Shown: piece after piece, positions 15,606-37,809 of the stretch
Layout of the letters: every line of letters begins with the position of its first letter
Position numbering within the stretch: the first letter of the stretch is position 1
DNA from: a virus
Direction: 5' to 3' (one strand)
Length of the DNA stretch: 39,998 bases
Virus record (IMG/VR): IMGVR_UViG_3300027908_000037
Coordinates: 1 to 39,998 of that record
Translations under genes and position numbers: made by a program
Notes under the pieces: generated by a model
Told to the model about the DNA's origin: nothing
The model's database searches: none
Seen by the model: only the letters and a program-made list of their open reading frames with translations

Positions 15606-15999
15606 ATGCCAGTCCACTCACACTATCATCGTCACCGGCGACCGCTACTGGACTGACTATGCATTTATTTTCGGTATTCTGCGCGATTGGCATAGTGAGT
15701 ATCATGTTGCTCTGCTGGTTCATGGTGCGTGCCGGGGTGCAGACGAAATCTGTGACCTTGCGGCCAGTGCGCTTTATATACCACGTAAGCCATACCCGGC
15801 AGAGTGGGACCGATTGGGTCTGGGCGCAGGACCGCAGCGGAATCGACTCATGCTGCATCAGCATCCCGAAGCACGAGTTGTACTGGCATTTCACGATCAT
15901 ATTGTGGCGAGCAAGGGCACAGCGGACATGGTGAGGGTGAGTGTCAGAATGGGAAAGCAAGTGGTGGTGTACTCGCATAATGGAGTCGAGTTCCTGTGA
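15568..15999 (+). CDS. DUF2493 (YspA/cpYpsA-related SLOG) family protein, 143 aa
   Basis: The first plausible start is ATG 15568, overlapping the preceding gene. Family hallmarks: IIVTGDRYWTD at the first strand, HGACRGADEICDLAA, KPYPAEWDRLGLGAGPQRNR, and a final strand VVVY after SKGTADMV. SLOG domains bind nucleotides or nucleotide-derived ligands; the exact ligand of this subfamily is not known to me. It is common in phages beside replication genes. The stop overlaps the polymerase GTG. Confidence 0.8.
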   Translation: MAKINIASDVASECQSTHTIIVTGDRYWTDYAFIFGILRDWHSEYHVALLVHGACRGADEICDLAASALYIPRKPYPAEWDRLGLGAGPQRNRLMLHQHPEARVVLAFHDHIVASKGTADMVRVSVRMGKQVVVYSHNGVEFL

Positions 16000-18900
16000 G
16001 CACCCAGCCGAACAGTCGTCCGAATAGTCGTCAGCCATCGTTTCGTCGGTACGATCCATTCGCGGGGCGTCCACTCAAATCCGTTCCCCCTGTCGGCCCT
16101 ATTCCGGCACGAGTGTACTTGATCGGGGAACGCCCCGGTGAAAATGAAGCGCGTAGGGGCTTGCCATTCATAGGTCCCGCTGGAAAATATCTGGACATTT
16201 GTTTAGCTGCTGCCAATATCGAGCGATCTCAGTGCAGAATAAATAATTTGGTCTCTACTTTTGCTGGGTACGGGAAACCGACGAAAGCAGAAATTGACCG
16301 CGACCATGATGCACTTGTAGCTGACATTTTGGAGTGCGATCCAGAAGTGATCGGATTAGTTGGCGGATGGTCGGTAGAGCATGTGCTTGGCGTCGAGCAC
16401 GCCGAGATGGAGAAGGTCCATGGAGTCCCACAGAGAGTCCCGGCACTGTTCGGTGGGGAATTGCCGCGTGACGGCGGGTGGACGGTGCTGCCACTATTGC
16501 ATCCGGCGGGAGCGACTCACTCACCAGACAGCCTCCCACTTATTCTTGACGATATCCTTCAGCTTGGCCGATTACTCGACCACGAGATCGCCGTGCGTGA
16601 GTCCGATCCATTCGCAGGCCGCGAGGACTACCGCGATTATCCTGTGAGCGGGCGCGGGGTGATCGTCCATAAGCCAGCCGGAGTCGATACCGAAGGCAGC
16701 CGTGTGCATCCATGGTGTATGACTGTATCGACTCGCCCCGGCACTGGGATGCTGTTCAAACCGGGCCAGCGAGTCACGTTCAAAGGCAAAGTTTACCTCT
16801 GGAATGCACTGCACGATCTCGGTGTGCTCAAAAATCTAGGTATCGAACTCGCCGACGACCAGTATGTCGATCTGATGATATTGGCATATAACCTGTGTGT
16901 TCATCCGCAGGGTCTCAAGCCATCTGCATACCGCAACTGTGGCATGCACCAAGACGACTACGACGATATCGTCCGCGAGGCTCGGCTCACCAAAGCCATG
17001 GATTACCTGCTGGCGGCGGCAGACAGAGACTGGCCGAAAGCCGAACCCCAGGTAATCGAGGATGCTGGCAAATATCGCGTGTACAAGCCGAAGTCGGTCA
17101 ACTTTCGGATTAAAAAGATTCTCGACGACTGGACGAAATGGCAGGTAGGCGGGAGAGAAGAAGAAGTCGATCTCAGGAAGAGATGGAGAGACATCGACGA
17201 CGTGATCAAAGCGCCAGTGATCGAGGCAATGGGAGAGCTACCCGATGCCACTTTGGATGATGTCCCGTATGAGCGGGCGAAGTTCTATGCGATCCGAGAC
17301 GCGGATGCCACGTTGCGCATGGCACCGATATTGGAGCAGAAGATCAAGGACATGGGACTGGAAGAGATAGCCGCCATCGACCACGCGATACTCCCGATGC
17401 TGGATTCAGCGCAGCAGAACGGAATCAGACTGGATGGACCGGAGTTTTGGAATGGCATCGAGTCTCAGTGTGAGTCGCAGATGTCACAGGCACAGTATCA
17501 GGTGTTCAAGCTGACTGGCGAGGATATCAATCCCGGATCGGGGGATCAGGTCGCGGCACTACTCTACGGTAAATTGGGACTGACGCCGCCGAAATATACA
17601 GACAGTGGTGAACGTGGCTCAGTCAACGCTGTGTGTCTGGAAGCGTTGCTCGGTCAGAATCCCGTCATCCAGCACATCATGGATTACACGGAAGCGTCGA
17701 AAATCCGAGGCACGTATGTGCTGCCACTGCGGAAATTGTGCATGCTCGGGGATCGCAGAGTACGGTCCACAATACGCAGCACACGCACCACCACTGGCCG
17801 ACTCGCTATGGCTGACCCTCCTCTCCACCAGATCCCGATTATGACTGACCTTGGCAAGCAGTTGCGTGGAGGATTTATCGCGGAATCAGGCCATGTACTC
17901 TACGACATCGACGTGAATCAGTTAGAAATGCGTATCATGGCGCATGACTCCCGTGATGAGGAGTTGTGCCGTCTGTTTTTTGAGAATAGAGATATTCATG
18001 CAGAGACGGCCTGTAGCATATTTTCGGTGCCCATGAATGCTTTGAATGTCGGTCCCACTGGAAAGGTTAACGATTACCGTCGTACGGTAGCAAAGCACTG
18101 CATTGCTGAAAATGAGCTAGTGCTCACAGATCAAGGTTTGATTCCAATTCAAAACATAACTGTACAACATAAACTATGGGATGGTGTAGAATGGGTGACA
18201 CACGGTGGCCTGATTGATCAAGGCATCCGAGAGGTGATCACTTATGAAGGACTCACAGCAACACCAGACCACGAAGTCGTCACGGAAACTGGCACCATCC
18301 GAACGTTTGGGGAAGTTGCATCCTCGCTGGATAGGCTCCATACAACCGGGGATGAAAGGGAGGCGCTTCGGACTCGCTATCGTAGTCTCCTCGAAAGTTC
18401 GGCGCAGGAACGGATACATAGAGCTGAAAGTGAAATGCACGAAGTGTGGCCGGATTTGGTGGATCATCAAGTCGAACCTAGTCAAGCCAGAGTTTCGCGG
18501 TTGCAAAAAGTGCAGTATGACGAAATCCAAACATCAATGGGTTTTAGGCAGAAGATACGATGCCATATTCCAACGCTGCAACACCCCTCACTATCGAGGC
18601 TACAAGAACTATGGGGCTCGCGGCATCAAGTGCCTGTTCAAATCACGCGCGGAGTTTGTGAAGTGGGTGGAGAAGAATTTGCCGCATCCCGATTACAAGG
18701 GCACAACGATAGGCCGGATCAACAACGATGGTCACTACAAGCCCGGCAATCTTCGACTCGAAACGACAGCAGAGCAGAATCTAAACAAGCGTACAACTTT
18801 GTGGATGACATACCATGGAGAGCGCATTCTGTTCCACGACTTCGACAGTCCGTACGAGGCGTCGTGGACATCTCGACTAGTGCATCGCGGAATGACCGGA

Positions 18901-19610
18901 GAGCAAATCATCACCGATGCGATAGCTCATACCAAAAAAGGGCATCGATCGAAAACGTGGCGGAAGTTGGCCGTATGGCTCAATTCGCACGGGTATACGA
19001 CATAGTGAACGCTGGACCTAGGCGATGTTTCACAGCGTCGGGAAAGCTGGTGCTTAACTGCGCTTTCGGCATAATCAATGGAATCACGGAACACGGCCTT
19101 GTCAACTACATGATTCTCAATCGATGCCGCAGGCCGGATGGGGAACCTTGGAACATTGACGACTGTTTGCAAATGAGAGAAGCGTGGTTTCAGAAGTATT
19201 CGGGTGTCAGGCGTTTTCAGAACGAATGTATCGATGAGACGAGGCAGACTGGGCTGGCACGGGAGACAATCGGTGGACGGATTATTTATTTGCCGCAGGT
19301 ATGGTCTCCGGATAAGCGAGTCCGAGAAAGTGCTGAGAGGATGAGTTACGTGATGCACACTCAGGCCGGCGGCCAGACATTGATCAAAAAGTGCATGGCG
19401 ATGGTCTGGCGGGAAGTGTGCAAAGTGCACCGAGAGGTGAAATTTCTCCTGCAAATGCATGATGAATTGTTGTTCGAGCTGCCTGACGATGAGAACTTGA
19501 AACGAGAAGTAGACCAGAGATGTGTCGATATCCTGTGCAATGAGGTGAAATTAAGAGTCCCGGTGCTGGCAGATGGCGGGTTTGGAAATTCTTGGCTCCA
19601 TGCGCACTGA
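15996..19610 (+). CDS. UDG / 3'-5' exonuclease / family A DNA polymerase with an intein, 1204 aa precursor
   Basis: It starts at GTG 15996. Residues about 35-190 are a family-4-like uracil-DNA glycosylase (IGERPGENEARRGLPFIGPAG, then LLHPAGATH). Residues 225-440 are a proofreading exonuclease with D231-T-E, N270-x3-D274 and Y431-x3-D435. The polymerase follows: motif A DVNQLEMRIMAH, the O-helix RRTVAKH at 695-701, then the intein at 702-1021, then CAFGIING, and motif C LLQMHDELLFE. The O-helix Tyr of FGxxYG is Asn here. Ligated exteins would give about 884 residues. A UDG-like domain on a PolA enzyme is known in phage SPO1. It is the likely replicase. Confidence 0.9.
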   Translation: MSTQPNSRPNSRQPSFRRYDPFAGRPLKSVPPVGPIPARVYLIGERPGENEARRGLPFIGPAGKYLDICLAAANIERSQCRINNLVSTFAGYGKPTKAEIDRDHDALVADILECDPEVIGLVGGWSVEHVLGVEHAEMEKVHGVPQRVPALFGGELPRDGGWTVLPLLHPAGATHSPDSLPLILDDILQLGRLLDHEIAVRESDPFAGREDYRDYPVSGRGVIVHKPAGVDTEGSRVHPWCMTVSTRPGTGMLFKPGQRVTFKGKVYLWNALHDLGVLKNLGIELADDQYVDLMILAYNLCVHPQGLKPSAYRNCGMHQDDYDDIVREARLTKAMDYLLAAADRDWPKAEPQVIEDAGKYRVYKPKSVNFRIKKILDDWTKWQVGGREEEVDLRKRWRDIDDVIKAPVIEAMGELPDATLDDVPYERAKFYAIRDADATLRMAPILEQKIKDMGLEEIAAIDHAILPMLDSAQQNGIRLDGPEFWNGIESQCESQMSQAQYQVFKLTGEDINPGSGDQVAALLYGKLGLTPPKYTDSGERGSVNAVCLEALLGQNPVIQHIMDYTEASKIRGTYVLPLRKLCMLGDRRVRSTIRSTRTTTGRLAMADPPLHQIPIMTDLGKQLRGGFIAESGHVLYDIDVNQLEMRIMAHDSRDEELCRLFFENRDIHAETACSIFSVPMNALNVGPTGKVNDYRRTVAKHCIAENELVLTDQGLIPIQNITVQHKLWDGVEWVTHGGLIDQGIREVITYEGLTATPDHEVVTETGTIRTFGEVASSLDRLHTTGDEREALRTRYRSLLESSAQERIHRAESEMHEVWPDLVDHQVEPSQARVSRLQKVQYDEIQTSMGFRQKIRCHIPTLQHPSLSRLQELWGSRHQVPVQITRGVCEVGGEEFAASRLQGHNDRPDQQRWSLQARQSSTRNDSRAESKQAYNFVDDIPWRAHSVPRLRQSVRGVVDISTSASRNDRRANHHRCDSSYQKRASIENVAEVGRMAQFARVYDIVNAGPRRCFTASGKLVLNCAFGIINGITEHGLVNYMILNRCRRPDGEPWNIDDCLQMREAWFQKYSGVRRFQNECIDETRQTGLARETIGGRIIYLPQVWSPDKRVRESAERMSYVMHTQAGGQTLIKKCMAMVWREVCKVHREVKFLLQMHDELLFELPDDENLKREVDQRCVDILCNEVKLRVPVLADGGFGNSWLHAH
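18099..19058 (+). mobile_element. Intein in the polymerase O-helix, with an out-of-frame endonuclease gene inside (320 aa)
   Basis: It begins at Cys (CIAENELVLTDQG, block A), has block B GLTATPDHEVV with the T-x-x-H motif, and ends with VYDIVNAGP (block F) and LVLN before the +1 Cys (block G). The penultimate His usual in block G is Leu. Insertion lies between RRTVAKH and CAFG, the most conserved part of the polymerase. Between about residue 80 and 285 the intein frame is open but reads Ser/Arg/Gln-rich filler; the real endonuclease is in the +1 frame. It should self-splice, unless the missing His slows asparagine cyclisation. Confidence 0.88.
18244..19005 (+). CDS. HNH homing endonuclease nested out of frame inside the intein, 253 aa
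   Basis: The frame is +1 relative to the polymerase. ATG 18244 is preceded by GAGGTGATC at 18231-18239, which matches the 16S anti-Shine-Dalgarno well. After an N-terminus that overlaps intein block B comes a phage zinc domain (GRRFGLAIVV, then KCTKCGRIWW and CKKC). The nuclease part follows: RCNTPHYRGYKNYGARGIKC and the HNH core IGRINNDGHYKPGNLRLET with AEQNLNKR. The usual Asp before RIN is Gly. It ends in TAG at 19003-19005 inside intein block F. ATG 18352 is an alternative start. Confidence 0.82.
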   Translation: MKDSQQHQTTKSSRKLAPSERLGKLHPRWIGSIQPGMKGRRFGLAIVVSSKVRRRNGYIELKVKCTKCGRIWWIIKSNLVKPEFRGCKKCSMTKSKHQWVLGRRYDAIFQRCNTPHYRGYKNYGARGIKCLFKSRAEFVKWVEKNLPHPDYKGTTIGRINNDGHYKPGNLRLETTAEQNLNKRTTLWMTYHGERILFHDFDSPYEASWTSRLVHRGMTGEQIITDAIAHTKKGHRSKTWRKLAVWLNSHGYTT

Positions 19611-24019: not shown

Positions 24020-24230
24020 TCGGCTGGTGGAGGAGCGGTACGGAGCGTTCTGTGCCGCCCCCAGTTTCAATCTCGCTCAGATGAAGCATTGCAAATCAGT
24101 ATCGGACTCGGGTTCGATTCCCGACACCTCCACCAATAACACTAACGGGGGTGCCAAGGTTTCGACGGTGCTGGTGACCGATGTGGATGGGTAGGGCTGG
24201 CGTGGCACCTTACGACACGCAAATGCAACC

Positions 24231-24299
24231 GCCAATAAAATGGCAAAGCTGTTCGTCATCCCGGCTCCGGCCCTGATGGTGACGGCTGCTGCGGCCTAA
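24231..24299 (+). other. tmRNA tag-peptide frame (ANKMAKLFVIPAPALMVTAAAA)
   Basis: The resume codon is probably GCC 24231; GCA 24225 is in frame and possible. The 22-residue tag is long but ends in hydrophobic residues and Ala-Ala, the form recognised by ClpXP-type proteases. The stop is TAA. Tagging stalled products would rescue ribosomes on broken messages during infection. Confidence 0.75.
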
Positions 24300-24319
24300 C
24301 GGTCAAAGCTCTGGGAGTG

Positions 24320-24347
24320 GCCCCGTCCCTAGTGAAATAAACGGGGC
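24320..24347 (+). terminator. Hairpin at the end of the tmRNA gene
   Basis: GCCCCGT (24320-24326) and ACGGGGC (24341-24347) form a 7-bp GC-rich stem with a 14-base loop, followed by AAATTATTCT. It may be a weak intrinsic terminator or a terminal helix of the tmRNA precursor. Confidence 0.5.
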
Positions 24348-24362
24348 AAATTATTCTCCCAC

Positions 24363-24821
24363 ATGCAAGTCGCCTCCGCATTGGCAGCAGTGCCGGTAAT
24401 CGCCCCGCGCAAGTCCTCTCGATGCCCGCATTGCAGACTGAATCAATTTGAACTGGCGAGCGGACTATGCCGGAGATGCCATGTGGAGATGCACGCCCCG
24501 GTCGAACCACTGCCAATCGTTGCGTTCGCGCCTGACCCTATACCTCTACCTGTACCTCTACCTCTATCTCCACCTGTCCTTCCATCCCATCCACTATCAT
24601 TCTGGGTTCCCGCAACACTGCTATTCTTGCGCTTGCGCTCCGGACAGTCCCAGAATCAGATCGCCAAACGCATCCCTACGCCGCGCACGTATATCAGCAA
24701 AGTCGAGAATGGCTGCCTGGATATAACATTGGTGTCGCTTGTGAGATACGCGGAGGCGCTGAATACAACGCCTTGGGATGTGCTTAGATTATGCGAGTGG
24801 TTGATGCAAGAGAGCGAGTAG
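24363..24821 (+). CDS. Zinc-ribbon plus XRE-type HTH regulator, 152 aa
   Basis: ATG 24363 follows the tmRNA hairpin. CPHC and CRRC near residues 21-41 form a zinc ribbon. A proline linker comes next, encoded by CTACCT-like tandem repeats (24538-24590). Residues about 90-145 are an XRE helix-turn-helix (GQSQNQIAKRIPTPRTYISK, then LVRYAEAL and PWDVLRL). It is the last plus-strand gene before the convergent late block, two bases from its neighbour. Confidence 0.7.
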   Translation: MQVASALAAVPVIAPRKSSRCPHCRLNQFELASGLCRRCHVEMHAPVEPLPIVAFAPDPIPLPVPLPLSPPVLPSHPLSFWVPATLLFLRLRSGQSQNQIAKRIPTPRTYISKVENGCLDITLVSLVRYAEALNTTPWDVLRLCEWLMQESE

Positions 24822-28047: not shown

Positions 28048-28512
28048 TCACTGCCACTCACCCGTGACGATCTGTGTTGCCAGTCTCTGCGCGCGTGCTG
28101 GTGATTGCACTTTCGCCCACTTCGAGTCCAGCATCTGTACTGACGCTTCTGGCCAGTTCTCATCCTGCATCGCGGCGAGTGCCTGCTTGAACTGAGCCAG
28201 CCCCTCGATTCCGAGTTGATAACACATATTCATCAGCACGCCGAACCGCACGCCATCCATTGTGCTCGTCCACGGGAATTGCACACGGATATCGGCAGCG
28301 GCCAGTGTAATGCGATTGACTGCCAGATACTCCATCTCGGCGTCAGTTAGTCCGCATCCACGACTAGCATCAATGCAGGTGCCGATGCCGACTGTGACGA
28401 ATCCCTTGACCATAGTCCCAGCGGAAATCGGAGCGCCATCGGCGTCATCGTATGCAGAGGATTTTTCGCCTTCATCTCGCTTGAGCTGATCGATGATATT
28501 GGTGATCGGCAT
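28048..28512 (-). CDS. T4-type lysozyme (GH24 endolysin), 154 aa
   Basis: ATG 28512 immediately follows a TAG that ends the previous frame, in the same reading frame. The catalytic arrangement Glu (KRDEGEKSSAYDDADG) then Gly-Thr (VTVGIGTCIDASRG) matches GH24 lysozymes, and MDGVRFGVLMNMCYQLG is the conserved middle helix. It cleaves peptidoglycan for release. No signal peptide, so a holin or the upstream domain must deliver it. Confidence 0.8.
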   Translation of the reverse strand: MPITNIIDQLKRDEGEKSSAYDDADGAPISAGTMVKGFVTVGIGTCIDASRGCGLTDAEMEYLAVNRITLAAADIRVQFPWTSTMDGVRFGVLMNMCYQLGIEGLAQFKQALAAMQDENWPEASVQMLDSKWAKVQSPARAQRLATQIVTGEWQ

Positions 28513-29421
28513 CTACTTCCCCAGCCTCGTTCCCGATAAGACAGAAATGATGTGCTCGAATCCCGTTCCCTCGTCGTAGTCGTTCCACGTCGGAATCGCC
28601 ACGTACTTGATGCTCGGCGGGATTGTTGCCACTTGGTCAAAGAACCAGTTGCCAGCTTGGTGATCCAGCCACCGTGTGGGGGTGGTTCCCGGCCAAGCCG
28701 ACAACAGCCAGTTACGGAGACCCTTCCATGCAGATTGCAGCGCCCCAGTCGGCGTAGGCTGTCCGCCATCGCAGAACATGATGTTCGCGCTGGCAATCTT
28801 CATCGTGGGCTTGGCGTGGTCGGCTTTGAGATCAGCCAATGCCAACGCAGGATTCGACGGATTATCACCTGTAACGATATTCGGCCACGAGTATCCCGTG
28901 TGCCATGAGAGGATGGGAATTGTCGGCACTGCTGCTTGCACCGTGGCCACATCGACTCCCGCCGAGGCGTTCATATCGAATTCCAGCACGTATTTCTCGG
29001 GCAGGTACGCCGGGGAGTTCAACACGCGCTGGCAGTCGGAATTCAACAACGCGCTGATAGTCGCTTGGGTGGGATTCGTCTGCTTCTCCGCGATCCACGG
29101 ATCGAGCATCAACCCGAACAGCAACTCGTGTTCCATGCAGCCTTCCCATATGTTCATCATCGCGTCGTGAAGGAATGGGTTTACAGTCGGCCCTTCCCAA
29201 TCCACAATGCAGCCCTTGATGCCAATGGCTTCCATGAAGTTGAGTTGATTGTTGATGACCACAGGATCATTGGACAGGTAGCGGTCGATGCGGTGCACTG
29301 TGGTGCCGTTGTTTTCGCCAAACCAGCCCTGCATGTGCGCGAGAGGTACGCCATTCCAGCCGACGATGTTCTTTTGCAGGGACTTTCCGAGATCGAGTGT
29401 TACTGGCGCGGTCATGGTCAT
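28513..29421 (-). CDS. Glycoside-hydrolase-like TIM barrel (GH71/GH99 type), 302 aa
   Basis: ATG 29421 overlaps the preceding stop. HMQGWFGENN near the start, KGCIVDWEGP in the middle and AIPTWNDYDEGTGFEH near the end match the barrel seen in GH71/GH99-type enzymes. It ends in TAG (28513-28515), directly followed in frame by the lysozyme ATG, so amber readthrough would give a 457-residue two-domain lysin. It probably degrades a cell-surface polysaccharide. Confidence 0.65.
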   Translation of the reverse strand: MTMTAPVTLDLGKSLQKNIVGWNGVPLAHMQGWFGENNGTTVHRIDRYLSNDPVVINNQLNFMEAIGIKGCIVDWEGPTVNPFLHDAMMNIWEGCMEHELLFGLMLDPWIAEKQTNPTQATISALLNSDCQRVLNSPAYLPEKYVLEFDMNASAGVDVATVQAAVPTIPILSWHTGYSWPNIVTGDNPSNPALALADLKADHAKPTMKIASANIMFCDGGQPTPTGALQSAWKGLRNWLLSAWPGTTPTRWLDHQAGNWFFDQVATIPPSIKYVAIPTWNDYDEGTGFEHIISVLSGTRLGK

Positions 29422-37245: not shown

Positions 37246-37321
37246 TGGAGCCGAGGGATGGAATTGAACCACCGACCTCTCTGCTAAAAGCAGAGTGCTC
37301 TGGCAACTGAGCTACCTCGGC
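37246..37321 (-). tRNA. tRNA-Lys (anticodon UUU)
   Basis: Acceptor GCCGAGG/CCTCGGC, D stem GCTC/GAGC, anticodon stem CTCTG/CAGAG with loop CTTTTAG, T-arm GGTGG-TTCAATT-CCATC, encoded CCA. Discriminator is T rather than the A usual for lysine tRNA, and the D-loop lacks the GG pair, so charging may be altered. Confidence 0.88.
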
Positions 37322-37322
37322 T

Positions 37323-37396
37323 TGGCACTCGCGGCTGGCAGTGAGCCAGCATCTCCGGCTTTAGAGGCCGATGCTCTCCGATTGAGCTACGCGAGT
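37323..37396 (-). tRNA. Second tRNA with anticodon CUA (amber suppressor type)
   Basis: Acceptor ACTCGCG/CGCGAGT, D stem GCTC/GAGC with loop AATCGGA, anticodon stem TCGGC/GCCGG, loop CTCTAAA giving CTA (the loop also found in supF), four-base variable region, T-stem GCTGG/CCAGC with an unusual loop CTCACTG in place of the TTC-type loop, discriminator G, encoded CCA. The odd T-loop may affect stability. Confidence 0.78.
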
Positions 37397-37771
37397 ATTG
37401 GTGAGAGGACCAGGTGTGACCCCCGAGGCCGTTTGACCGGCTGTCCCCTCATGTGACCACAGTCGATAATGCCGCAGCACCTGTTTCTGTCCTTCCCCAA
37501 CAGCAGCCGTGGCAATCGCCGTGAACCCCATATCGTTGTCAGGCTCAGTCCAGCAGTAATGCGGAATTTGCGCAGCCTGCAACTTCGCAAGCACGCGATT
37601 GAGCGCATTCACGTCTGGAACGCCGATGAGAACGATGTTGGGGATCCCCTCACCCTGCGGATAGCATGTGGAAATGCCTCGCGTGGCGTGGTTCGATTGG
37701 ACCATTTGATGCTGTATGGGAAGGTCTTGCCGGATGAACAGGTAGGCGTGGCGGTTGTCGATCTATGTCAT
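37361..37771 (-). CDS. Peptidyl-tRNA hydrolase 2-like protein with TAG as third codon
   Basis: The conserved body reads IPNIVLIGVPDVNALNRVLA, IPHYCWTEPDNDMG and FTAIATAAVG, typical of phage PTH2-like proteins that cleave peptidyl-tRNA. The family N-terminus RHAYLFIRQDLPIQHQMVQS is present in frame but has no ATG, GTG or TTG except ATG 37771, and codon three after it is TAG (37763-37765). An M within the body (37705) would lose the first strand. So full-length product needs amber readthrough. The 3' end overlaps the second CUA tRNA. Confidence 0.7.
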
Positions 37772-37780
37772 AATGTCGAT

Positions 37781-37809
37781 AATATAGCGCGGTGCGATTC
37801 CGCTGTCAA
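37781..37809 (-). promoter_or_regulatory. Strong sigma70-like promoter (TTGACA-17-TATATT)
   Basis: On the minus strand: TTGACA at 37809-37804, 17 bases, TATATT at 37786-37781 (5/6). The start near 37774 leaves about three bases before ATG 37771. It drives the PTH2-like gene and probably the three tRNAs behind it. Confidence 0.8.

Follow-up and report, generated by a model that had tools for sequence, protein, structure and literature searches.

How a phage gene whose third codon is an amber stop can be expressed, and whether the phage itself supplies the tRNA that reads this codon, are the questions raised by one locus in a 39,998-nucleotide stretch of viral DNA (IMG/VR record IMGVR_UViG_3300027908_000037, positions 1 to 39,998; hereafter, the window). 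On its minus strand, ATG (37771–37769), ACA, and TAG (37765–37763) are followed by ATC GAC AAC CGC CAC and a frame that stays open to the stop at 37361 (Table 1). No ATG, GTG, or TTG occurs in frame in the 19 codons that separate the TAG from the internal ATG at 37705, and the arrangement given in a preliminary description, a start codon, ACA, TAG, and then a PTH2 frame with no other start nearby, was thus confirmed. The strong near-leaderless promoter proposed there also held: its −35 hexamer starts at 37809, its −10 hexamer ends at 37781, and ATG 37771 lies about 9–10 nt past the latter, with the predicted transcript start approximately 2–3 nt 5′ of the ATG. For a looser promoter class, 0.7 chance sites are expected across the 1.2 kb in question. 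Within the clade to which the window belongs (n = 7), a TTGACA-like promoter occurs immediately 5′ of the ATG in all seven members, ATG-(ACA or TCA)-TAG-AT is found in six, the seventh (L257) having its TAG at codon 6, and the CUA tRNA overlaps the ORF in five (the window, L042, L043, L257, and L259), as had been noted for the window. All three tRNAs of the window cluster score above the Rfam tRNA threshold. The tRNA at 37323–37396 gave the first impression of a tRNA-Trp with an altered anticodon, which alignment did not support; the suppressor tRNAs near the hydrolase genes are highly diverse, and their sequences do not reveal their amino acid.

Table 1. Features of the window, with positions counted from its first nucleotide.
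Feature	Position	Strand	Remarks
Sigma70-like promoter, TTGACA-17-TATATT	37781–37809	−	11/12 consensus positions; near-leaderless
Gate, ATG ACA TAG	37763–37771	−	start codon, codon 2, amber codon 3
PTH2-like ORF	37361–37771	−	136 aa with TAG read; conserved domain at about residues 7–105
Internal ATG (residue 23)	37703–37705	−	unlikely to be the real start; initiation there drops strand 1 (residues 8–14)
tRNA, CUA anticodon	37323–37396	−	ARAGORN; Rfam tRNA, 58 bits; overlaps the final 36 nt of the ORF
tRNA-Lys (UUU)	37246–37321	−	same cluster as the CUA tRNAs
Second tRNA, CUA anticodon	37158–37234	−	same cluster
ORF upstream of the lysozyme frame (region 28048–29421)	28513–29421	−	TAG followed immediately by the in-frame lysozyme ATG (TAGATG)
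Permuted tmRNA gene	24043–24390	+	Rfam RF04321, 85.8 bits
DNA polymerase gene	15996–19610	+	intein-like insertion of roughly 350 residues separating two polymerase parts

In terms of its predicted fold, the product of the gene is a PTH2-type protein, with peptidyl-tRNA hydrolysis as its putative activity, which agrees with its earlier description as PTH2-like. The AlphaFold model has a pLDDT of 90.3, and its best Foldseek matches in the PDB are Bit1, MJ0051, and the Pth of S. solfataricus (TM about 0.67–0.74, best E-value 1e-5); the TM score against the homologue from phage RaK2 is 0.87–0.92. The window protein alone scores 13.6 bits against PF01981 (PTH2), below the curated cut-off of 23, whereas 15 of 28 relatives match this family (best 6e-11), and a profile built from the relatives retrieves PTH2 structures at 7e-8. 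As a group, the phage proteins have the fold of the PTH2/Bit1 family and broadly its sequence profile, with the window member falling short of the Pfam cut-off, but differ from it in the KGK-type motif after R-x-D-L, where the lysines are replaced (x-x-Q) in the alignment with PTH2 structures. Since these lysines carry weight for catalysis in PTH2, the exact reaction is uncertain. A second PTH2 gene, which more closely resembles the canonical type that Atu_ph07 represents, is present in several gated phages: XacN1 (174045), Myrna (16412), RAS14 (158442), and LR756511 (219221). Searching IMG/VR directly with the window protein on its own returned no matches, so that a profile was required to reach the relatives; a scan of host genomes found no relatives.

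The early stop, which we call the gate, is widespread among these relatives. Among 131 distinct viral contigs obtained from three scans, an in-frame stop lies inside the PTH2-like gene in 66, in a count that treats close contigs singly, ignores phylogeny, and draws on metagenomic contigs of unequal completeness. An early TAG at codons 3–5 occurs in 57 contigs, two of which have an additional mid-gene TAG; in the 55 with the early TAG only, it stands at codon 3 (33), codon 4 (20), or codon 5 (2). Only a mid-gene stop is present in nine cases, TAG in eight contigs and TGA in one. The eight (L050, L058, L059, L080, L090, L096, L105, and L126) each have a single TAG, at varying positions, and a CUA tRNA nearby. 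The remaining 65 contigs have no gate, one of them holding a chance ATG-N-N-TAA, and some of these assignments may be wrong, a few incomplete or frame-disturbed loci probably being misclassed. The choice of stop codon is not random: under a strict criterion, the stops preceding PTH2-like frames were TAG, TAA, and TGA in 36, 0, and 0 cases, compared with 22, 19, and 17 for the remaining frames at these loci (Fisher p = 7e-11).

The first six distant homologues inspected all began with ATG, one or two codons, and TAG, and those with a deposited coding sequence have it annotated from a later position; this start recurs in relatives with about 30–50% protein identity. No fewer than 16 cultured or complete phages have the device, with gates such as ATG CTG TAG in Arash, ATG ACT TAG in ME3, ATG GCA CAA TAG in GAP32, and ATG ACT CAC TAG in LR756511. 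In XacN1 and RAS14, ATG AAG TAG precedes an HD-domain fusion with an unrelated N-terminus, indicating that the stop tracks the function of the protein rather than its N-terminal sequence. The mycobacteriophages Alice and Pleione have ATG TAG GTG and Myrna has GTG TAG GTG, each beside a CUA tRNA; here the GTG after the TAG could itself be a start codon. From these sequences, the gated hydrolase gene appears to be common to phages of proteobacteria, and perhaps of mycobacteria. Three contigs (L138 at 2104, L139 at 3772, and L140 at 4181) also contain an additional PTH2-like start, truncated and itself gated (ATG ACG TAG or ATG ACA CAC TAG), which runs into another ORF, perhaps through insertion of a homing endonuclease.

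The stop codon and the anticodon change together. Phage Atu_ph07 has been reported to encode one suppressor tRNA, with the anticodon UCA, as well as peptidyl-tRNA hydrolases (PMC6102473). The TGA gate predicted on this basis was borne out: its gene begins ATG ATT GGC GAA CAC TTT TGA, and no start codon was seen between this TGA and the domain. The Phosso orthologue, which is 73% identical to the Atu_ph07 copy, reads AGGAG...ATG AAG TAT TAG, in a genome with two CUA tRNAs and, among the 55 tRNAs inspected, none with UCA. In L057, a TGA lies in the gene and two UCA tRNAs are present, in a genome where genome-wide reassignment of TGA is possible. The cognate suppressor tRNA in the same genome therefore switches with the stop, CUA accompanying TAG, and UCA accompanying TGA in Atu_ph07 and L057.

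Suppressor tRNAs were found in the flanking DNA examined of 62 of the 66 gated contigs, and all 120 of those near the gene lie on its strand. At loci with three or more tRNAs (n = 68), the CUA tRNA was the one nearest to the gene in 45, with 12.7 expected. Among named phages, a CUA tRNA occurs in 15/15 gated genomes, and none was found in five ungated ones (RaK2, RCIP0023, phiKp_21, Hallingskeid, and AS-zj; the phiKp_21 record is partial), an association with p = 6e-5, not corrected for phylogeny. Fifty of the 65 ungated relatives also have a CUA tRNA nearby, which means that the tRNA must have another role there; in these relatives, the suppressor tRNA often begins no more than 15 nt from the stop codon of the hydrolase gene, a proximity suggesting a functional link between tRNA and hydrolase beyond gating. 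When 16 CUA tRNAs were collected irrespective of the gene, five had it in the surrounding DNA examined, and three of these were gated, with identical sequences. Phage DLP_5 (L235 50270; 86% related to Summit) has a CUA tRNA, but our search found no PTH2-like gene in it. tRNAs with the anticodon UUA, possible ochre suppressors, were observed in L170 (RAS14), L036, and L187 (Lak-A1).

The sequence around the gate differs from that around ordinary terminators. The base following the gate TAG (n = 54) is A in 46 cases and a purine in 53, whereas of the 81 TAG terminators at these loci only 22 are followed by A (p = 2e-11). A purine at +4, above all A, promotes amber suppression, and a change from C to A at this position increased suppression by SupE 10-fold (PMC6266110). 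The codon after the gate is also relevant to reinitiation, in which AUG-X-UAG would act as a two-codon minigene and the ribosome would stop and restart just past the UAG at a non-AUG codon (AUU, AUC). ATT, ATC, and ATG follow 21, 4, and 2 of the 54 gates, respectively, and reinitiation is possible in L017, L042, and the mycobacteriophages because an ATG or GTG stands directly after the TAG. However, many gates continue with AAT, AAC, ACN, GTA, or GAA, the mid-gene TAG and TGA codons (residues 26–59) are left unexplained, and reinitiation does not predict the pairing of TGA with UCA and TAG with CUA, so that we consider it improbable.

Initiation at an internal Met (37705 in the window), the frame upstream of it being untranslated, is how the deposited coding sequences of GAP32, CBB, Arash, Atu_ph07, and Phosso are drawn. 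Homologues beginning at this later Met had been thought capable of overturning the gate, but the first four of these drop a conserved strand of the fold core, and in the predicted structure an internal start loses strand 1 and half of helix 1. In most relatives, that position holds no start codon. Furthermore, the segment from the gate to the earliest codon that could serve as a start has a pN/pS of 0.28 (pooled over 191 pairs that are not independent), indicating protein-level selection just 3′ of the gate, which makes an internal start very unlikely.

The presence of a CUA tRNA, and of a relative in the Lak phages, which are known for genetic code 15, might suggest that TAG has been reassigned throughout the genome and that the gate is an ordinary sense codon. 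However, TAG is the terminator of 81 among the 735 long frames at these loci and of 5 among the 35 ORFs listed for the window, so it has not been abandoned as a terminator, as code 15 demands, and the genome is not recoded. Reading TAG as sense also adds less coding coverage than does reading TGA or TAA as sense, and the Lak-A1 copy is ungated; there is little chance that reassignment accounts for the gate. Suppression at the TAGATG listed in Table 1 would join the ORF at 28513–29421 and the lysozyme into a protein of 457 aa, a possible second target. A nonsense mutation, pseudogene, or sequencing error, plausible when one sequence is viewed in isolation, can be dismissed almost entirely, as the same device recurs in more than 60 contigs and in no fewer than 16 phages that are cultured or complete, and the protein sequence downstream of it is conserved.

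The conserved gate, the match between stop and anticodon, the protein-level selection downstream, and the PTH2 fold together make it very probable, on comparative grounds, that synthesis of the hydrolase requires the phage's own suppressor tRNA, as the preliminary description had proposed. With an early stop and a tRNA able to read it, the enzyme is probably not made unless the suppressor tRNA works. In this mechanism, a ribosome would initiate at ATG 37771 of the near-leaderless transcript, incorporate Thr, and reach the UAG at codon 3, which is followed by A, a context favouring suppression. If only host tRNAs were available, release factor 1 would terminate translation after fMet-Thr; once the phage CUA tRNA was transcribed, matured, and charged, it would decode the UAG, and the full PTH2-fold enzyme would be produced. 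Because gene and tRNA share a strand and overlap, with the tRNA downstream, a single transcript could hold both, forming an autogenous circuit, in which tRNA processing and translation may compete where the two overlap.

We infer that the UAG is decoded by the phage tRNA in its charged form, and that the enzyme hydrolyses peptidyl-tRNA, presumably to clear peptidyl-tRNA arising from early or slow decoding or else to limit the suppressor. One study (PMC10192219) describes short peptidyl-tRNAs as frequently dropping off in early elongation and being recycled by Pth, and a weak suppressor at codon 3 would be a situation prone to such drop-off. The enzyme could then release trapped tRNAs, including the suppressor (a positive loop), or could instead inactivate the suppressor (a negative loop). 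A more elaborate negative scheme, in which the suppressor tRNA turns on a hydrolase that attacks that tRNA's own peptidyl- or aminoacyl-form and a second negative loop in the same transcript arises wherever the tRNA is embedded in the gene, translation and tRNA maturation each disrupting the other, is conceivable but rather doubtful. Of the feedback suggested previously, the production of hydrolase when the suppressor is active follows from the gate; the substrate and the reason are conjecture, and about half of the relatives are ungated.

If the gene is gated by the phage's own tRNA, phage suppressor tRNAs would have a concrete target, one whose stop codon varies in step with their anticodon. 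The target of the CUA tRNA could not be identified by the XacN1 authors; it was sought in Summit, and none was identified; and the RsoM2USA and Atu_ph07 (PMC6102473) authors limited themselves to suggesting several genes as possible targets. The gated HD-PTH2 gene is a candidate target of the XacN1 CUA tRNA. We did not find the device described in the open-access papers searched. Current annotations shorten or overlook gated hydrolase genes, and the role of phage suppressor tRNAs becomes directly testable in phages that can be handled in the laboratory, Alice, ME3, and Arash among them.

The locus is consistent with a natural single-gene amber gate within standard-code genomes, and the nearest known systems include none of this kind. 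Bacterial RF2 (prfB) is controlled by an autogenous programmed frameshift at an early in-frame stop; both are translation factors whose synthesis hinges on the decoding of such a stop, but RF2 relies on frameshifting and on the factor itself, whereas the phage gene would rely on a separate, cognate suppressor tRNA. In the code-15 phages with suppressor tRNAs, crAss-like and Lak (PMC9523058, PMC10879173), a phage-encoded CUA tRNA likewise decodes in-frame TAG, but many genes are recoded, whereas here TAG still terminates genes, and the gate sits close to the start of a single small gene from one family. The lambda bar-type minigenes, tied to peptidyl-tRNA drop-off and host Pth (cited in PMC12487901), have the same AUG-codon-stop at their start, and in the phages studied here such a minigene forms the opening of the gene for the hydrolase. 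A further parallel is a synthetic suppressor-tRNA feedforward "leak dampener," in which an amber codon directly follows the start codon and supP tRNA is co-controlled (PMC7969014); that circuit was engineered, whereas the phage version is natural and lies in a putative tRNA-recycling enzyme.
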